Shown piece by piece: positions 14,301 to 38,841 of a stretch of DNA of 64,000 bases. The translations under genes and the position numbers were made by a program. Under the pieces are notes generated by a model. It had not been told where the DNA came from, did no database searches, and saw only the letters and a program-made list of their open reading frames with translations. Where the stretch lies: contig NZ_JANKZL010000014.1 in the NCBI RefSeq assembly GCF_027568395.1, positions 1 to 64,000 on the forward strand, written 5' to 3'. This stretch comes from Aminobacter sp. HY435. GTDB taxonomy: Bacteria > Pseudomonadota > Alphaproteobacteria > Rhizobiales > Rhizobiaceae. Numbering within the stretch: position 1 is the first letter of the stretch; each line of letters begins with the position of its first letter.

Positions 14301-14933
14301 TCAGATGCGGCGCAGGTTTCGAATCTCGAGGATGACTCCCTGCGCGTCGGTCAGGCTGGGATGTTCTACCAGATCGAATCGCCACTGATGAGCGCTATCT
14401 TCGATTTCCTGCCGGTAATCCCGGCCTTTGTGGAAAAGCGCAACTGTCCCGGACGCAAGCCAGGGTGCCGACAGTTCGAGCAGCAGCGGCAACGGCGCCA
14501 AGGCGCGCGCACTCAGGATATCCGGTCCGGAGATTGCCTTTTGCACATCCTCGATCCGCTTTGCATGCACCCTCGCCGGCAGCTTGAGTTCACCAACCAC
14601 AGCCTGCAAAAACCCGGCCTTCTTGCGATTGCTCTCGACCAGATCGATGGTCGCGCCGGACCGTTCGGCGATCATCGAGGCAATGACAAGTCCCGGAAAA
14701 CCGCCGCCCGAACCGATGTCGAGCCATTTTTGGGCTGCTCCACCTAGCTTTGTGACCTGTGCGCTATCCAGGATGTGGCGCTCCCAGGCGTCAACCAACG
14801 TCGAAGGAGCGACCAGATTGATACGCTGCGCCCATCTGCGGAACACGGTTTCGAAGGCGATCAGCTTTTCGTATGTTTCACGTGAAACGGGACCTGCAAC
14901 TTCTTGCAACCGGGCATAGGCATCTCGTTTCAA
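14301..14933 (-). CDS. rsmG: 16S rRNA (guanine-N7) methyltransferase RsmG (GidB)
   Basis: A 210-residue SAM-dependent methyltransferase that modifies G527 of 16S rRNA. The SAM loop is [15 protein letters not shown], preceded by [11 protein letters not shown]. The start codon overlaps the mnmG stop by four bases. Residues near position 16-20 read VSRET, encoded by a parS-like sequence at 14874-14889, so the protein also carries a centromere site in its coding DNA. Confidence 0.96.
14874..14889. other. parS: parS site inside rsmG
   Basis: TGTTTCACGTGAAACG matches the ParB palindrome TGTTTCACGTGAAACA at 15 of 16 positions. It lies in the 5' end of rsmG and is read there as VSRET. Confidence 0.92.
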
Positions 14934-16798: not shown

Positions 16799-16872
16799 GA
16801 CTCTCTCCAGGAACAGATGCCGGGACAGATGTCCCTATCATCAGCCGATGTCAAGGGAATCGCCCAGGTGGT

Positions 16873-16888
16873 GGTTTCACGTGAAACA
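16873..16888. other. parS: parS site 1 in the mnmG-mnmE spacer
   Basis: GGTTTCACGTGAAACA differs from the 16-base palindrome only at its first base. It lies 75 bp before the mnmG start. Confidence 0.92.
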
Positions 16889-16918
16889 ACTTGTACGTAG
16901 CGCAAGCGAAATTTTCAG

Positions 16919-16934
16919 TGTTTCACGTGAATCA
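16919..16934. other. parS: parS site 2 in the mnmG-mnmE spacer
   Basis: TGTTTCACGTGAATCA has one mismatch to the palindrome (T for A at position 14). It lies 46 bp from site 1 and 45 bp from site 3, so the three sites are almost evenly spaced. Confidence 0.88.
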
Positions 16935-16963
16935 TTGCGCGCTGCAGACGTCGCAGCCCCTTG

Positions 16964-16979
16964 TGTTTCACGTGAATCA
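16964..16979. other. parS: parS site 3, overlapping the mnmE stop codon
   Basis: TGTTTCACGTGAATCA, identical to site 2. Its last three bases are the complement of the mnmE TGA stop. Confidence 0.88.
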
Positions 16980-18293
16980 TTTGCCGATGCAGAATTGGGA
17001 AAAGATGACGTCCAAAAGGTCTTCTACGTCCACTGCCCCTGACAACCGGCCGATTCGGTCTGTCGCCAGACGAAGTTCTTCGGACCTCAACTCCAAGGGT
17101 TGATTGGCAAGCGAGCCTTCAAGATGTCGCAATCCCTCGGCCAACAGTTCGACATGCCTGAGCCGCGAAGGCAATATCTCGCCTTTTGTCCCGGCGGCTT
17201 GAAATGCGGCTGCACCGATCATCTGAAGCAAGCTGCCGATGTTCTCGCCGGTGGCCGTCGATATACAGAGATCGTATCTTTTGGGTGCTTGTTGCGCAGC
17301 GGCTCGATCGAGCTTGTTTCCGATGTGGATGGCATGAACAGAAGTCGGCAGTTCGATGTCGGCAGCAGAAGTGGACATGTCTTCCAAGTGCAGGACGAGG
17401 TCCGCCCGCTGAGCTCTCTGCTTCGCGCGATCGACGCCGATCGCTTCGACCTTGCCCGAAGGTTCCCGCAGGCCGGCCGTGTCGGTAATTCTCACCTTCA
17501 AGCCGTCGAGCTCCAATACGGCTTCGACCAGGTCACGGGTTGTACCGGGCTCGTCGGTCACAATGGCTGCTTCCCGCTGCAGCAATGCGTTCAGCAGACT
17601 GGACTTTCCCGCATTTGGCGCACCCAGTATGACCACGTCATAGCCGTCGCGGATCATCTCTGCCTTGTGATAGCCACCTAGGTGTTGCTTCATCTCGCCA
17701 ACCAGAAGCGATATGTCGCGCCAAACCTGCCCTGAAACGGAGCTCGGAACATCGGCCTCGTCAGCGAAGTCCATTTCGGCTTCGATCATTGCTCGCGCAT
17801 GAATGAGCCTGCGCCGCCAGGCGCTGTAGAGTTCACTCTGCGCGCCGCTTGAGTTGAGCACCGCAAATTGACGCTGCGCTTCGGTTTCAGCATTGATCAG
17901 GTCGGCCAGGGCCTCCGCCGCGAGGAGGTCCATCTTGCCATTGAGAAAGGCCCGTCGCGTGAATTCACCCGGCTCGGCGTGGCGCAGGCCAGGTATGCGG
18001 GTGAGTTCCGCAAGAAGCGCGGCGACCACCGCACGACCGCCATGAACGTGGAACTCGCCACAGTCTTCGCCTGTGAAACTGCTCGGCCCGGGAAAAAACA
18101 GAGTCAGCCCGTGATCGAGCAGCTCGCCTGACTGGCGATGCAACGCTCCGTAATGCGCGAGCCGTGCTTTCGGTAACTTTCCCAGGATTGTTTCGATAGC
18201 GAATCGAACATGCGGCCCCGAAATGCGGATGATCGCCACCCCTGACGGCAGGTGTCCGCTGGACAGTGCGACGATGGAATCGGTGAATAGCAT
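16977..18293 (-). CDS. mnmE: tRNA modification GTPase MnmE (TrmE)
   Basis: GTPase partner of MnmG. The 438-residue protein has an N-terminal tetrahydrofolate-binding domain (FTGEDCGEFHVHGG), a helical domain, an inserted G domain with GAPNAGKSS, DEPGTTRD, DTAGLREP and NKLD, and the invariant C-terminus FCIGK that supplies the catalytic cysteine. The frame is open to 18338 but the start giving the conserved MLFTDSIVALSSG N-terminus is the ATG at 18293. It is divergent from the YyaL-type gene. Confidence 0.95.
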   Translation of the reverse strand: MLFTDSIVALSSGHLPSGVAIIRISGPHVRFAIETILGKLPKARLAHYGALHRQSGELLDHGLTLFFPGPSSFTGEDCGEFHVHGGRAVVAALLAELTRIPGLRHAEPGEFTRRAFLNGKMDLLAAEALADLINAETEAQRQFAVLNSSGAQSELYSAWRRRLIHARAMIEAEMDFADEADVPSSVSGQVWRDISLLVGEMKQHLGGYHKAEMIRDGYDVVILGAPNAGKSSLLNALLQREAAIVTDEPGTTRDLVEAVLELDGLKVRITDTAGLREPSGKVEAIGVDRAKQRAQRADLVLHLEDMSTSAADIELPTSVHAIHIGNKLDRAAAQQAPKRYDLCISTATGENIGSLLQMIGAAAFQAAGTKGEILPSRLRHVELLAEGLRHLEGSLANQPLELRSEELRLATDRIGRLSGAVDVEDLLDVIFSQFCIGK

Positions 18294-21816: not shown

Positions 21817-22350
21817 TCAGAACGGCTTTACAACCACCAGTATGACGATGACGATCATCAGCACCGTCGGAATCTCGTTGACAATGCGCCAGTGCCGCGA
21901 CGGCTTTTCGTTGCGGTCCTCGGCAAAACGCCGAACCGACGCCGAGAGATAGCCATGCACGCCTGAAAGCAGCAGCACCGCGGCCAGCTTGGCATGCAGC
22001 CAGCCGCCGGCGAAGCCAAAGCCCTTCCAGGCCAGCCACAGCCCGAACACCCAGGTGACGATCATCGCCGGATTGATGATGGCGACCAGAAGCCTCCGCT
22101 CCATGACCTTGAAGGTCTCGGACTGGACCGACCCCTTCTCGGCCTCGGCGTGGTAGACGAACAGACGCGGCAGATAAAGCATGCCGGCCATCCAGGAGAT
22201 CACCGCGATGACATGGACCGCCTTGGCCCACGGGTAGAACCCGTCCGGAGCCACAACAAACAGCAAGGCTGTCAGAACGATCAACGTCAAGATGGCGATG
22301 ACGGCGCGTTTGGCCGCGGCGCGGCCGTTCGAAACCTGGGCAGCGCTCAT
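21817..22350 (-). CDS. hemJ: protoporphyrinogen oxidase HemJ
   Basis: A 177-residue membrane protein with four hydrophobic helices and the HemJ pattern [20 protein letters not shown] followed by LFVYHAEA, with conserved histidine and later [11 protein letters not shown]. HemJ oxidises protoporphyrinogen IX to protoporphyrin IX in bacteria lacking HemY/HemG. The ATG at 22350 overlaps the hemE stop by four bases, joining two steps of heme synthesis. A longer open frame upstream runs through hemE and is not coding. Confidence 0.9.
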
Positions 22351-23381
22351 TGGCCTTTTGCCTTGCGAACGCGGTTCACCATCGCCTCGACATGAGCGAT
22401 CGGCGTCTCCGGCGTGATCCCGTGTCCCAGATTGAAGATCAGGGGTCCGGAACCAAGCCCCTCGAGGATAGCGTCGACGCCCTCTTCCAGCGCCCGGCCG
22501 CCGGCAACCAGCCGCAACGGATCGAGATTGCCCTGCACCGCGCCGCCCGCCTGCAAGCGCCTGGCCTGCGACACCGGAACCGTCCAGTCGAGACCCAGAC
22601 CGGTCACGCCGGTCCTTTGCCTGTAGCTGTCGAGTTGTGCGCCAGCACCTTTCGGGAAGCCGATGATCGGAACATCCGGATGGACCGCGCGAACCTTGCG
22701 CACGATCTCGGCCACCGGCTTGACACAGCATGCTTCAAAAGTGGCTTCGTCGAGAACTCCCGACCAAGAATCGAAGATCTGCACCACATCGGCACCAGCC
22801 TCGATCTGACGGATGAGATAGGCGGCCGAATGGTCGGCAAGGGTCGAAAGCAGTTGCGCCATCGCTACCGGTTCGCGATAGGCAAACAGCCGCGCCGGCG
22901 CCTGGTCCGGCGTGCCATGACCAGCGATCATATAGGTAGCCACAGTCCATGGCGCGCCGCAGAACCCGATCAGCGTCGTCGTCTCGGGCAGTTCGCGGCG
23001 GAGCCGCCGAACCGTTTCGTAGACGGGTTCGAGATTCACGTGAAACTTTGAACCGTCGAGCGCTGCAATCTCGGCAGGCGTTATCGGCGTCATCATCGGG
23101 CCCCGCCCTTCTTCGAAGCGAAGGTCGCGGCCAAGCGCATGCGGCACGACGAGAATATCGGAAAACAGGATCGAAGCGTCGAAGTCGAAGCGCCGGATCG
23201 GCTGCAGCGTCACTTCGACCGCGAGATCGGGATTGTAGCAAAGATCGAGGAAGCTGCCGGCCTGCTTCCGGCTCTCCCGATATTCAGGGAGATAGCGGCC
23301 TGCCTGGCGCATCATCCAGAGCGGAGGAACCTCGAGGCTTGTGCCTTTGAGGACGTCGAGCAGAGCGCGTTTTACGGGCAT
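22347..23381 (-). CDS. hemE: uroporphyrinogen decarboxylase HemE
   Basis: A 344-residue enzyme converting uroporphyrinogen III to coproporphyrinogen III. The signature [18 protein letters not shown] is at the N-terminus, with catalytic-region [12 protein letters not shown] and [12 protein letters not shown]. It is the gene that borders the replication origin in many alphaproteobacteria (Caulobacter, Sinorhizobium). A parS-like site lies inside the coding region at 23032-23047, read in frame as KFHVNL. Confidence 0.97.
23032..23047. other. degenerate parS-like site inside hemE
   Basis: AGATTCACGTGAAACT keeps the 12-base core TTCACGTGAAAC but has three mismatches in the outer bases of the 16-base palindrome. 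Lower affinity than the spacer sites is expected. Confidence 0.55.
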
Positions 23382-23431
23382 CAGGTCTGCCTTTCCTTGT
23401 GCCTTCTATAAACAAAAATTTTTACCGAAGG

Positions 23432-23613
23432 GATTCTTCTAATTCTTAGAGTCTGTTGGAATCGAGAATTGCGAACTGTCCATAGGCGGCCTGAGATATC
23501 CACTTGTCATAGTGACGCGCGGCCGAATTCGCCACTGGGGAAAACTTCGTGTGCGACGAGGATTCAACGATTTGAATCAAAGTTCTACGACGCAGCCCAT
23601 ATGGTGCTGATTC
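23432..23613. repeat. cluster of six GANTC (CcrM methylation) motifs in oriC
   Basis: GANTC occurs at 23432, 23449, 23459, 23561, 23574 and 23609 (first base of each), six times in 182 bp where random sequence would give fewer than one. CcrM methylates this motif in alphaproteobacteria in step with replication. Confidence 0.8.
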
Positions 23614-23689
23614 TGTGGGCGACGAGGGACGAAAAAACAATCCCCACAATCCTCCCCATCGCTTCGGGCGAACTGACAGCAGGGCGAAT

Positions 23690-23698
23690 TGTGGACAA
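23690..23698 (-). promoter_or_regulatory. DnaA box, one mismatch
   Basis: TGTGGACAA reads TTGTCCACA on the minus strand, differing from TTATCCACA only at the third base. Confidence 0.75.
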
Positions 23699-23747
23699 CT
23701 GGCCATCTGATACAGTCCACACGTTCGCTTCCGGCCGACACGGCCGT

Positions 23748-23756
23748 TTATCCACA
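23748..23756 (+). promoter_or_regulatory. DnaA box, exact consensus
   Basis: TTATCCACA, 27 bp before the ppsR start codon. Confidence 0.88.
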
Positions 23757-23782
23757 TTTGACCACAGACCCAGGCTCCCACT

Positions 23783-24604
23783 GTGAACAAACCCCAAAGC
23801 TTCTTCCATCTGCACCTGATTTCCGACGCCACGGGCGAAACGCTTCTGGCGGCGGGGCGCGCGGCTTCGGCACAATACAAGGATGCCCGCGCGATCGAGC
23901 ACATCTACCCGCTGATCCGGACCGAGAAGCAGCTGATGAAGGTGTTCGACGATATCGAGGAGGAGCCGGGCATCGTGCTCTACACTGTCGTCGACCAGCA
24001 TCTCGCCGGCATCATCGACAGCCGCTGCGCCACGATGGGTTTGCCTTGCGTGTCAGTTCTGGAGCCGGTGCTGTCGGTCTTCCAGTCCTATCTCGGCGCG
24101 CCGGCCGGCCGCCGCGTCGGCGCCCAGCACGTGCTCGACGCCGAATATTTCCGGCGGATCGACGCGCTCAATTTCACCATGGAACATGACGACGGCCAGC
24201 TCCCTTCGGACATGGAGCAGGCCGATGTCGTGCTGATCGGCATATCCAGGACGTCGAAGACGCCGACCAGCATCTATCTCGCCAACCGCGGCATCAAGAC
24301 GGCCAACATCCCGATCGTGCTCGGCGTGCCCGTGCCGGAAAGCCTCGTCCAGGCCAAGACGCCGCTGGTTGTCGGGCTGATCGCGACGGCCGAACGCATT
24401 TCCCATGTTCGGCAGAACCGGATACTCGGAACGACGATGGCCTTCGACGCGCAGGATTATGTCGACCGCGCCTCGATCACCGAGGAACTGGCCTATGCGC
24501 GCCAGATCTGCACGCGCCACAATTGGCCGATGATCGATGTCAGCCGCCGTTCTATCGAAGAGACGGCTGCGGCCATCGTCGCGCTGCGCAACAAGAACCG
24601 CTAG
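23783..24604 (+). CDS. ppsR: pyruvate, water dikinase regulatory protein (bifunctional kinase/pyrophosphorylase, DUF299)
   Basis: A 273-residue protein of the PPSR family that phosphorylates, and removes phosphate by phosphorolysis from, a threonine on PEP synthase or pyruvate phosphate dikinase. The N-terminus [20 protein letters not shown] and the P-loop-like [20 protein letters not shown] are diagnostic. GTG start at 23783. The target dikinase is not in this window, though pckA (another PEP enzyme) is. It borders oriC on the right. Confidence 0.93.
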
Positions 24605-38190: not shown

Positions 38191-38841
38191 ATGCGCGTCG
38201 CCATCATCGATTACGGTTCGGGCAACCTCCGCTCGGCGACCAAGGCCTTCGAGCGCGCCGCCCGCGAAGCCGGCATCAGCGCCGAGATCGACCTCACCGC
38301 GGATGCCGGGCGCGTGCTCACCGCCGATCGTATCGTGCTGCCTGGCGTCGGCGCCTATGCCGATTGCGCCCGCGGCCTGCGCGCCGTCGACGGTATGTGG
38401 GATGCCGTCGAGGAGGTTGCCATCCGCAAGGCGCATCCCTTCCTCGGCATCTGCGTCGGCATGCAGCTGATGTCGGAGCGCGGCCTCGAAAAGACCGTCA
38501 CCGACGGCTTTGGCTGGATATCAGGCGACGTGAAGGAGATCACGCCGACAGACCCGACGCTGAAGATTCCGCAGATCGGCTGGAACACGATTCACGTGAA
38601 ACATCCGCATCCTGTGTTTCACGGAATTCCGACTGGCCCGGATGGCTTGCACGCCTATTTCGTGCATTCCTATCATCTCGACGCGACCGATGAGAAACAG
38701 GTCCTGGCGACCGCCGACTATGGCGGCCGGGTCACCGCGACGGTTGCGCGCGACAATCTTGTCGGCACGCAGTTTCATCCTGAAAAGAGCCAGGCCCTGG
38801 GCCTCGCCCTCATTGCCAATTTCCTGAGGTGGAAGCCATGA
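38191..38841 (+). CDS. hisH: imidazole glycerol phosphate synthase, glutamine amidotransferase subunit
   Basis: A 216-residue class I glutaminase. N-terminus [19 protein letters not shown], oxyanion block [10 protein letters not shown], nucleophile in [11 protein letters not shown], and His/Glu in [10 protein letters not shown]. It gives ammonia to HisF. A parS-like sequence lies in the coding region at 38588-38603. Its stop overlaps the DUF1330 start. Confidence 0.97.
38588..38603. other. parS-like site inside hisH
   Basis: CGATTCACGTGAAACA has two mismatches to TGTTTCACGTGAAACA and keeps the full TTCACGTGAAACA half. It is about 15 kb to the right of oriC. Confidence 0.6.

Follow-up and report, generated by a model that had tools for sequence, protein, structure and literature searches.

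The hemE-ppsR intergenic gap as probable chromosomal replication origin in an Aminobacter relative, with conserved CcrM sites in its AT-rich block

The 401-bp intergenic gap between hemE and ppsR (positions 23382 to 23782 of the window, i.e. the whole 64,000-nucleotide stretch analyzed) is very probably the chromosomal oriC of its host, an Aminobacter relative and soil bacterium, with a DnaA-loading end at ppsR and an end at hemE that would open first. The coordinates of the original prediction were exact: hemE reaches up to 23381, and ppsR begins at 23783. The hemE assignment (22347 to 23381, minus strand) was supported by a score of 411 bits for TIGR01464, above the cut-off. For ppsR (23783 to 24604, plus strand; PPDK regulatory protein, DUF299, COG1806), the regulator model NF003742 scored above its cut-off, but the narrower PpsR equivalog model remained under its own, so that the name "PPDK/PEP synthase regulator" is preferable. 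Both genes are transcribed divergently from the gap, which has a GC content of 51% compared with about 60% in the surroundings. An Rfam scan detected no RNA families in the window. The chromosomal origin of S. meliloti also lies beside hemE.

The gap was compared with characterized origins. In Caulobacter crescentus, Cori occupies 404 bp between hemE and a COG1806 gene and carries DnaA boxes, one IHF site and five CtrA sites (PMC1914354); it shares the flanking genes and the length of about 400 bp with the window gap. Both gaps have an AT-rich segment and few, mostly weak DnaA boxes, and the IHF site of Cori has an IHF-like candidate as its counterpart in the window (PMC1914354; PMC4468827). 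Unlike Cori, the window gap contains no CtrA site (TTAA-N7-TTAA), even if one mismatch is allowed, and only 5 of 103 relatives' loci have a site at this threshold. In this respect it resembles, by published description, the chromosomal origin of S. meliloti, a member of the same order, for which neither CtrA motifs nor CtrA binding was reported (PMC4433202). Because S. meliloti lacks the sites too, CtrA sites do not define a hemE-type oriC in this order. For the CcnA RNA, no clear S. meliloti homologue was found according to a Caulobacter study (PMC8959179).

The DnaA boxes are located at the ppsR end. Both boxes named in the original prediction, TTATCCACA at 23748 to 23756 on the plus strand and TTGTCCACA at 23690 to 23698 on the minus strand, were recovered and are conserved in relatives. 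Two further boxes have two mismatches each, TTGACCACA (23758 to 23766, plus strand) and TTGTTCACA (23782 to 23790, minus strand), the latter overlapping the ppsR start codon. Four boxes with at most two mismatches fall within the 101 bp that start at 23690; no more than two were found in any other span of this length on 164 kb of the contig. The 4.6-Mb draft genome has 19 copies of the motif TTRTCCACA, of which only the two in the hemE-ppsR gap lie within 100 bp of each other. The gap therefore contains what characterizes a hemE-type oriC, a DnaA-box cluster exceeding background. The description of the boxes as few was only partly right, because they are concentrated at one end: four boxes in 101 bp are not sparse, but the placement at the ppsR end holds. 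The sequence CAGTCCACA at 23714 to 23722 was considered as an extra DnaA box and dropped because conservation covers only its CATCTGATACAGTC part and not CCACA. At 23688 to 23718, a conserved TTGTGGACAA...CATCTGATACAGTC adjoins and overlaps a DnaA box; this element could be the ppsR promoter, with a negative result in the sigma-70 scan.

Among about 100 relatives, most family members have a gap of 396 to 405 bp. Relative to ppsR, the main boxes sit near −94 on the minus strand and near −35 on the plus strand; nearly all of the approximately 90 Aminobacter/Mesorhizobium loci share this arrangement, and it recurs in several other family members. In a wider genome set, hemE adjoins ppsR in 20 of 25 ppsR loci; the pairing is retained across the order. 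Gaps of 492 to 501 bp, not about 400, were observed in L101, L107, L120, L121, L124, L132, L135, L136, L145 and L153; these loci share an insert next to hemE that resembles a repeat, GCGCATGATCCTTTCCGAACC...GGTTCGGGGTCATGCGC, and their box positions are the same as elsewhere.

The constancy of gap length and box spacing across about 100 loci, together with a box density unique in the 164 kb of contig, argues against a gap that is only a divergent hemE/ppsR promoter with DnaA-regulated transcription, oriC being located elsewhere in the same origin-proximal tens of kilobases. Promoters also carry DnaA boxes, and hemE transcription was reported to be important for replication in Caulobacter (PMC8959179), both of which would fit such a promoter; so would the coarse resolution of skew, which by itself narrows the origin down to no less than about 90 kb. 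However, the promoter scan found no sigma-70-like promoter in the gap, and the Caulobacter oriC is known experimentally at the same junction (PMC1914354). We consider the promoter-only explanation very unlikely.

The assignment of the gap as oriC was further assessed by regional signals. With up to two mismatches allowed, the genome has six parS-like sites, and five of these are in the window: one at 14874 to 14889, three starting at 16873, 16919 and 16964 (16873 to 16979), and one with two mismatches at 38588 to 38603. The cluster lies 6 to 9 kb from the gap, and in the relatives G002, G009, G024 and G055 parS is found about 5 to 7 kb from hemE-ppsR. GC skew, proposed in the original prediction as a check, was weak both over the window and over the contig it comes from, and no clear minimum marked the locus. 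The host assembly is a draft of 29 contigs; the analysis drew on the own contig and on samples of relatives, and skew evidence was taken from G002, a near-complete chromosome of the same genus with the hemE-ppsR locus at 0.752 Mb and the antipode at about 3.25 Mb. In this chromosome, the polarity of AIMS (GGGNAGGG) flips near 0.62 to 0.75 Mb and near 2.9 to 3.3 Mb. A strand 6-mer skew model, trained far from the locus, yielded a flat trough at about 675 to 765 kb that includes the locus and spans about 90 kb; its numerical minimum, at 711 kb, is 40 kb off the locus. The skew of G002 places the origin regionally, to about 90 kb, and not to the base.

The G002 chromosome also bears on an oriC beside dnaA, the arrangement common in many bacteria. 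The G002 assembly begins at dnaA (position 34 of G002:C1, L211), which at first sight favors this location; however, base 1 is not the origin, because the assembly was rotated to start at dnaA. The gene lies 752 kb from hemE-ppsR, and no skew flip was observed there. In the own genome, dnaA is on a different contig from hemE-ppsR, and its locus has no tight DnaA-box cluster. An oriC beside dnaA is thus regarded as exceedingly improbable. The reading of the hemE-ppsR gap as oriC is supported because independent lines agree: parS, skew and AIMS in G002, the conserved gap and boxes, the flanking genes of Cori and the distant dnaA. The hemE/COG1806 junction, the box cluster, an AT-rich patch and, within about 90 kb, the skew switch in G002 were all found, as for a hemE-type oriC. 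The sequence shows the location, the boxes and the AT-rich block, as well as the conservation of these features and, in relatives, the origin signals of the region.

The AT-rich patch predicted beside hemE was confirmed, with 30% GC at 23400 to 23449 against about 60% GC in the surrounding region. The AT-richest 40 bp lie at most 100 bp from hemE in 90 of 103 relatives. The patch with its conserved block (23403 to 23462) shows the highest conservation at the hemE end and is proposed as DNA unwinding element; the block reads GATTCTTCTAATTCTTAGAGTCTGTTGG in the window. On the minus strand it consists of a degenerate DnaA-box homologue, ATTCCAACA (23454 to 23462, four mismatches; a better box is present at this position in other families), the spacer GACTCT and the DnaA-trio-like run AAG AAT TAG AAG AAT (23433 to 23447). 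Four to five trios in the same register were found in all 81 anchorable loci. The predicted asymmetric layout, AT-rich at hemE with boxes at ppsR, was likewise borne out, and it is the normal one, in which one end unwinds and the other loads DnaA.

The block was compared with the published BUS rule, a DnaA box with at most two mismatches within 16 bp of at least three NAN trios (PMC8287927). The window resembles a BUS in the trio-like run toward hemE within an AT-rich block, in the orientation shared with the better matches of other families. It has five consecutive trios where the BUS requires at least three, but the run has a P of 0.22 from the window sequence alone; moreover, the adjacent box has four mismatches, unlike a BUS with its published limit of two (PMC8287927), and the rule had no match in the window gap. 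In a wider set, mostly from the order's other families, 7 of 20 gaps have a minus-strand BUS match with at least five trios at the hemE end; among Markov sequences built from the window gap, about 3% attain five. The mean trio run in the wider set was 5.6 on the minus strand, whereas the plus-strand mean was 3.4 and that of the null 3.8. Because of the P value of the run and the failure of the adjacent box under the published rule, it is by homology that we infer a BUS unwinding element in the window.

The gap contains six GANTC sites, the target of CcrM, compared with 2.3 under a first-order Markov null (P for at least six, 0.021). The counts of conservation in 79 relatives include close relatives and are not phylogenetically independent: 72 for 23432 to 23436, all 79 for 23449 to 23453 between the box homologue and the trios, 24 for 23459 to 23463, 52 for 23561 to 23565, 59 for 23574 to 23578, and 10 for 23609 to 23613. 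A GANTC at alignment position 23441 is present in 66 of the 79 and absent from the window. The sites at the hemE end bracket the BUS-like trio block. The density in the gap is 15 per kb compared with a mean of 2.2 per kb in the contig's other intergenic regions; in relatives, it is 12.5 per kb compared with 1.8 in the remainder of the loci, mostly flanking genes. GANTC was found within the first 110 bp in 20 of 22 sequences (the window, one Mesorhizobium and 20 order-level gaps), where 9.6 were expected.

A density matching that of the gap (16.6 per kb) was observed at 16799 to 17099, a short stretch between genes, upstream of mnmG, that holds five GANTC motifs together with three of the parS-like sites. 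GANTC lies inside three of the five parS-like sites, which have the TGATTCACGTGAAACA form (16919 to 16934, 16964 to 16979 and 38588 to 38603); parS may therefore also be a CcrM target.

A CcrM with a RAMA domain is encoded in the genome. CcrM is present in all 27 genomes, including both without GANTC at the hemE end, so that a correlation between loss of CcrM and loss of GANTC is uninformative. Once-per-cycle control is exerted by CtrA at the Caulobacter origin and by Dam/SeqA at E. coli oriC. According to a Caulobacter modelling study, re-initiation at Cori requires full methylation (PMC2217572). This requirement, the enrichment and conservation of GANTC and the encoded CcrM make it plausible that methylation acts as a switch in the putative opening element. 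The combined reading of trios and GANTC arose during exploration of the alignment, with no prior hypothesis, and the part of the literature covered held no report of GANTC sites inside a DnaA-trio block. More speculatively, the opening element of Hyphomicrobiales might be built around CcrM sites, with hemi- and full methylation tuning DnaA-dependent opening in place of CtrA or Dam/SeqA; we regard this generalization as rather doubtful.

An IHF-like site, AATCAAAGTTCTA (23575 to 23587, plus strand), matches at 12 of 13 positions and overlaps the GANTC site at 23574 by 4 bp. This one-mismatch match is partly conserved, and 0.09 such matches are expected per 401 bp. In the proposed mechanism, DnaA would load onto the clustered boxes beside ppsR (23690 to 23790), and an IHF-like bend at about 23580 may bring this DnaA-loaded stretch close to the hemE end. 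Opening would begin in the AT-rich block (23403 to 23462), where the helicase would enter. DnaA binding, IHF binding, the opening site and a modulation of opening by GANTC are thus predicted from sequence features.

The gap is a well-supported, ordinary alphaproteobacterial oriC in the usual place for the group, and it is new for this organism; the CcrM-linked opening element is possibly novel. The position of oriC is thereby fixed for Aminobacter and, by homology, for Mesorhizobium; at least one same-genus assembly starts at dnaA, 752 kb away. The conserved CcrM sites in the putative opening element are a candidate for replication licensing in rhizobia, whose origin has no CtrA sites.
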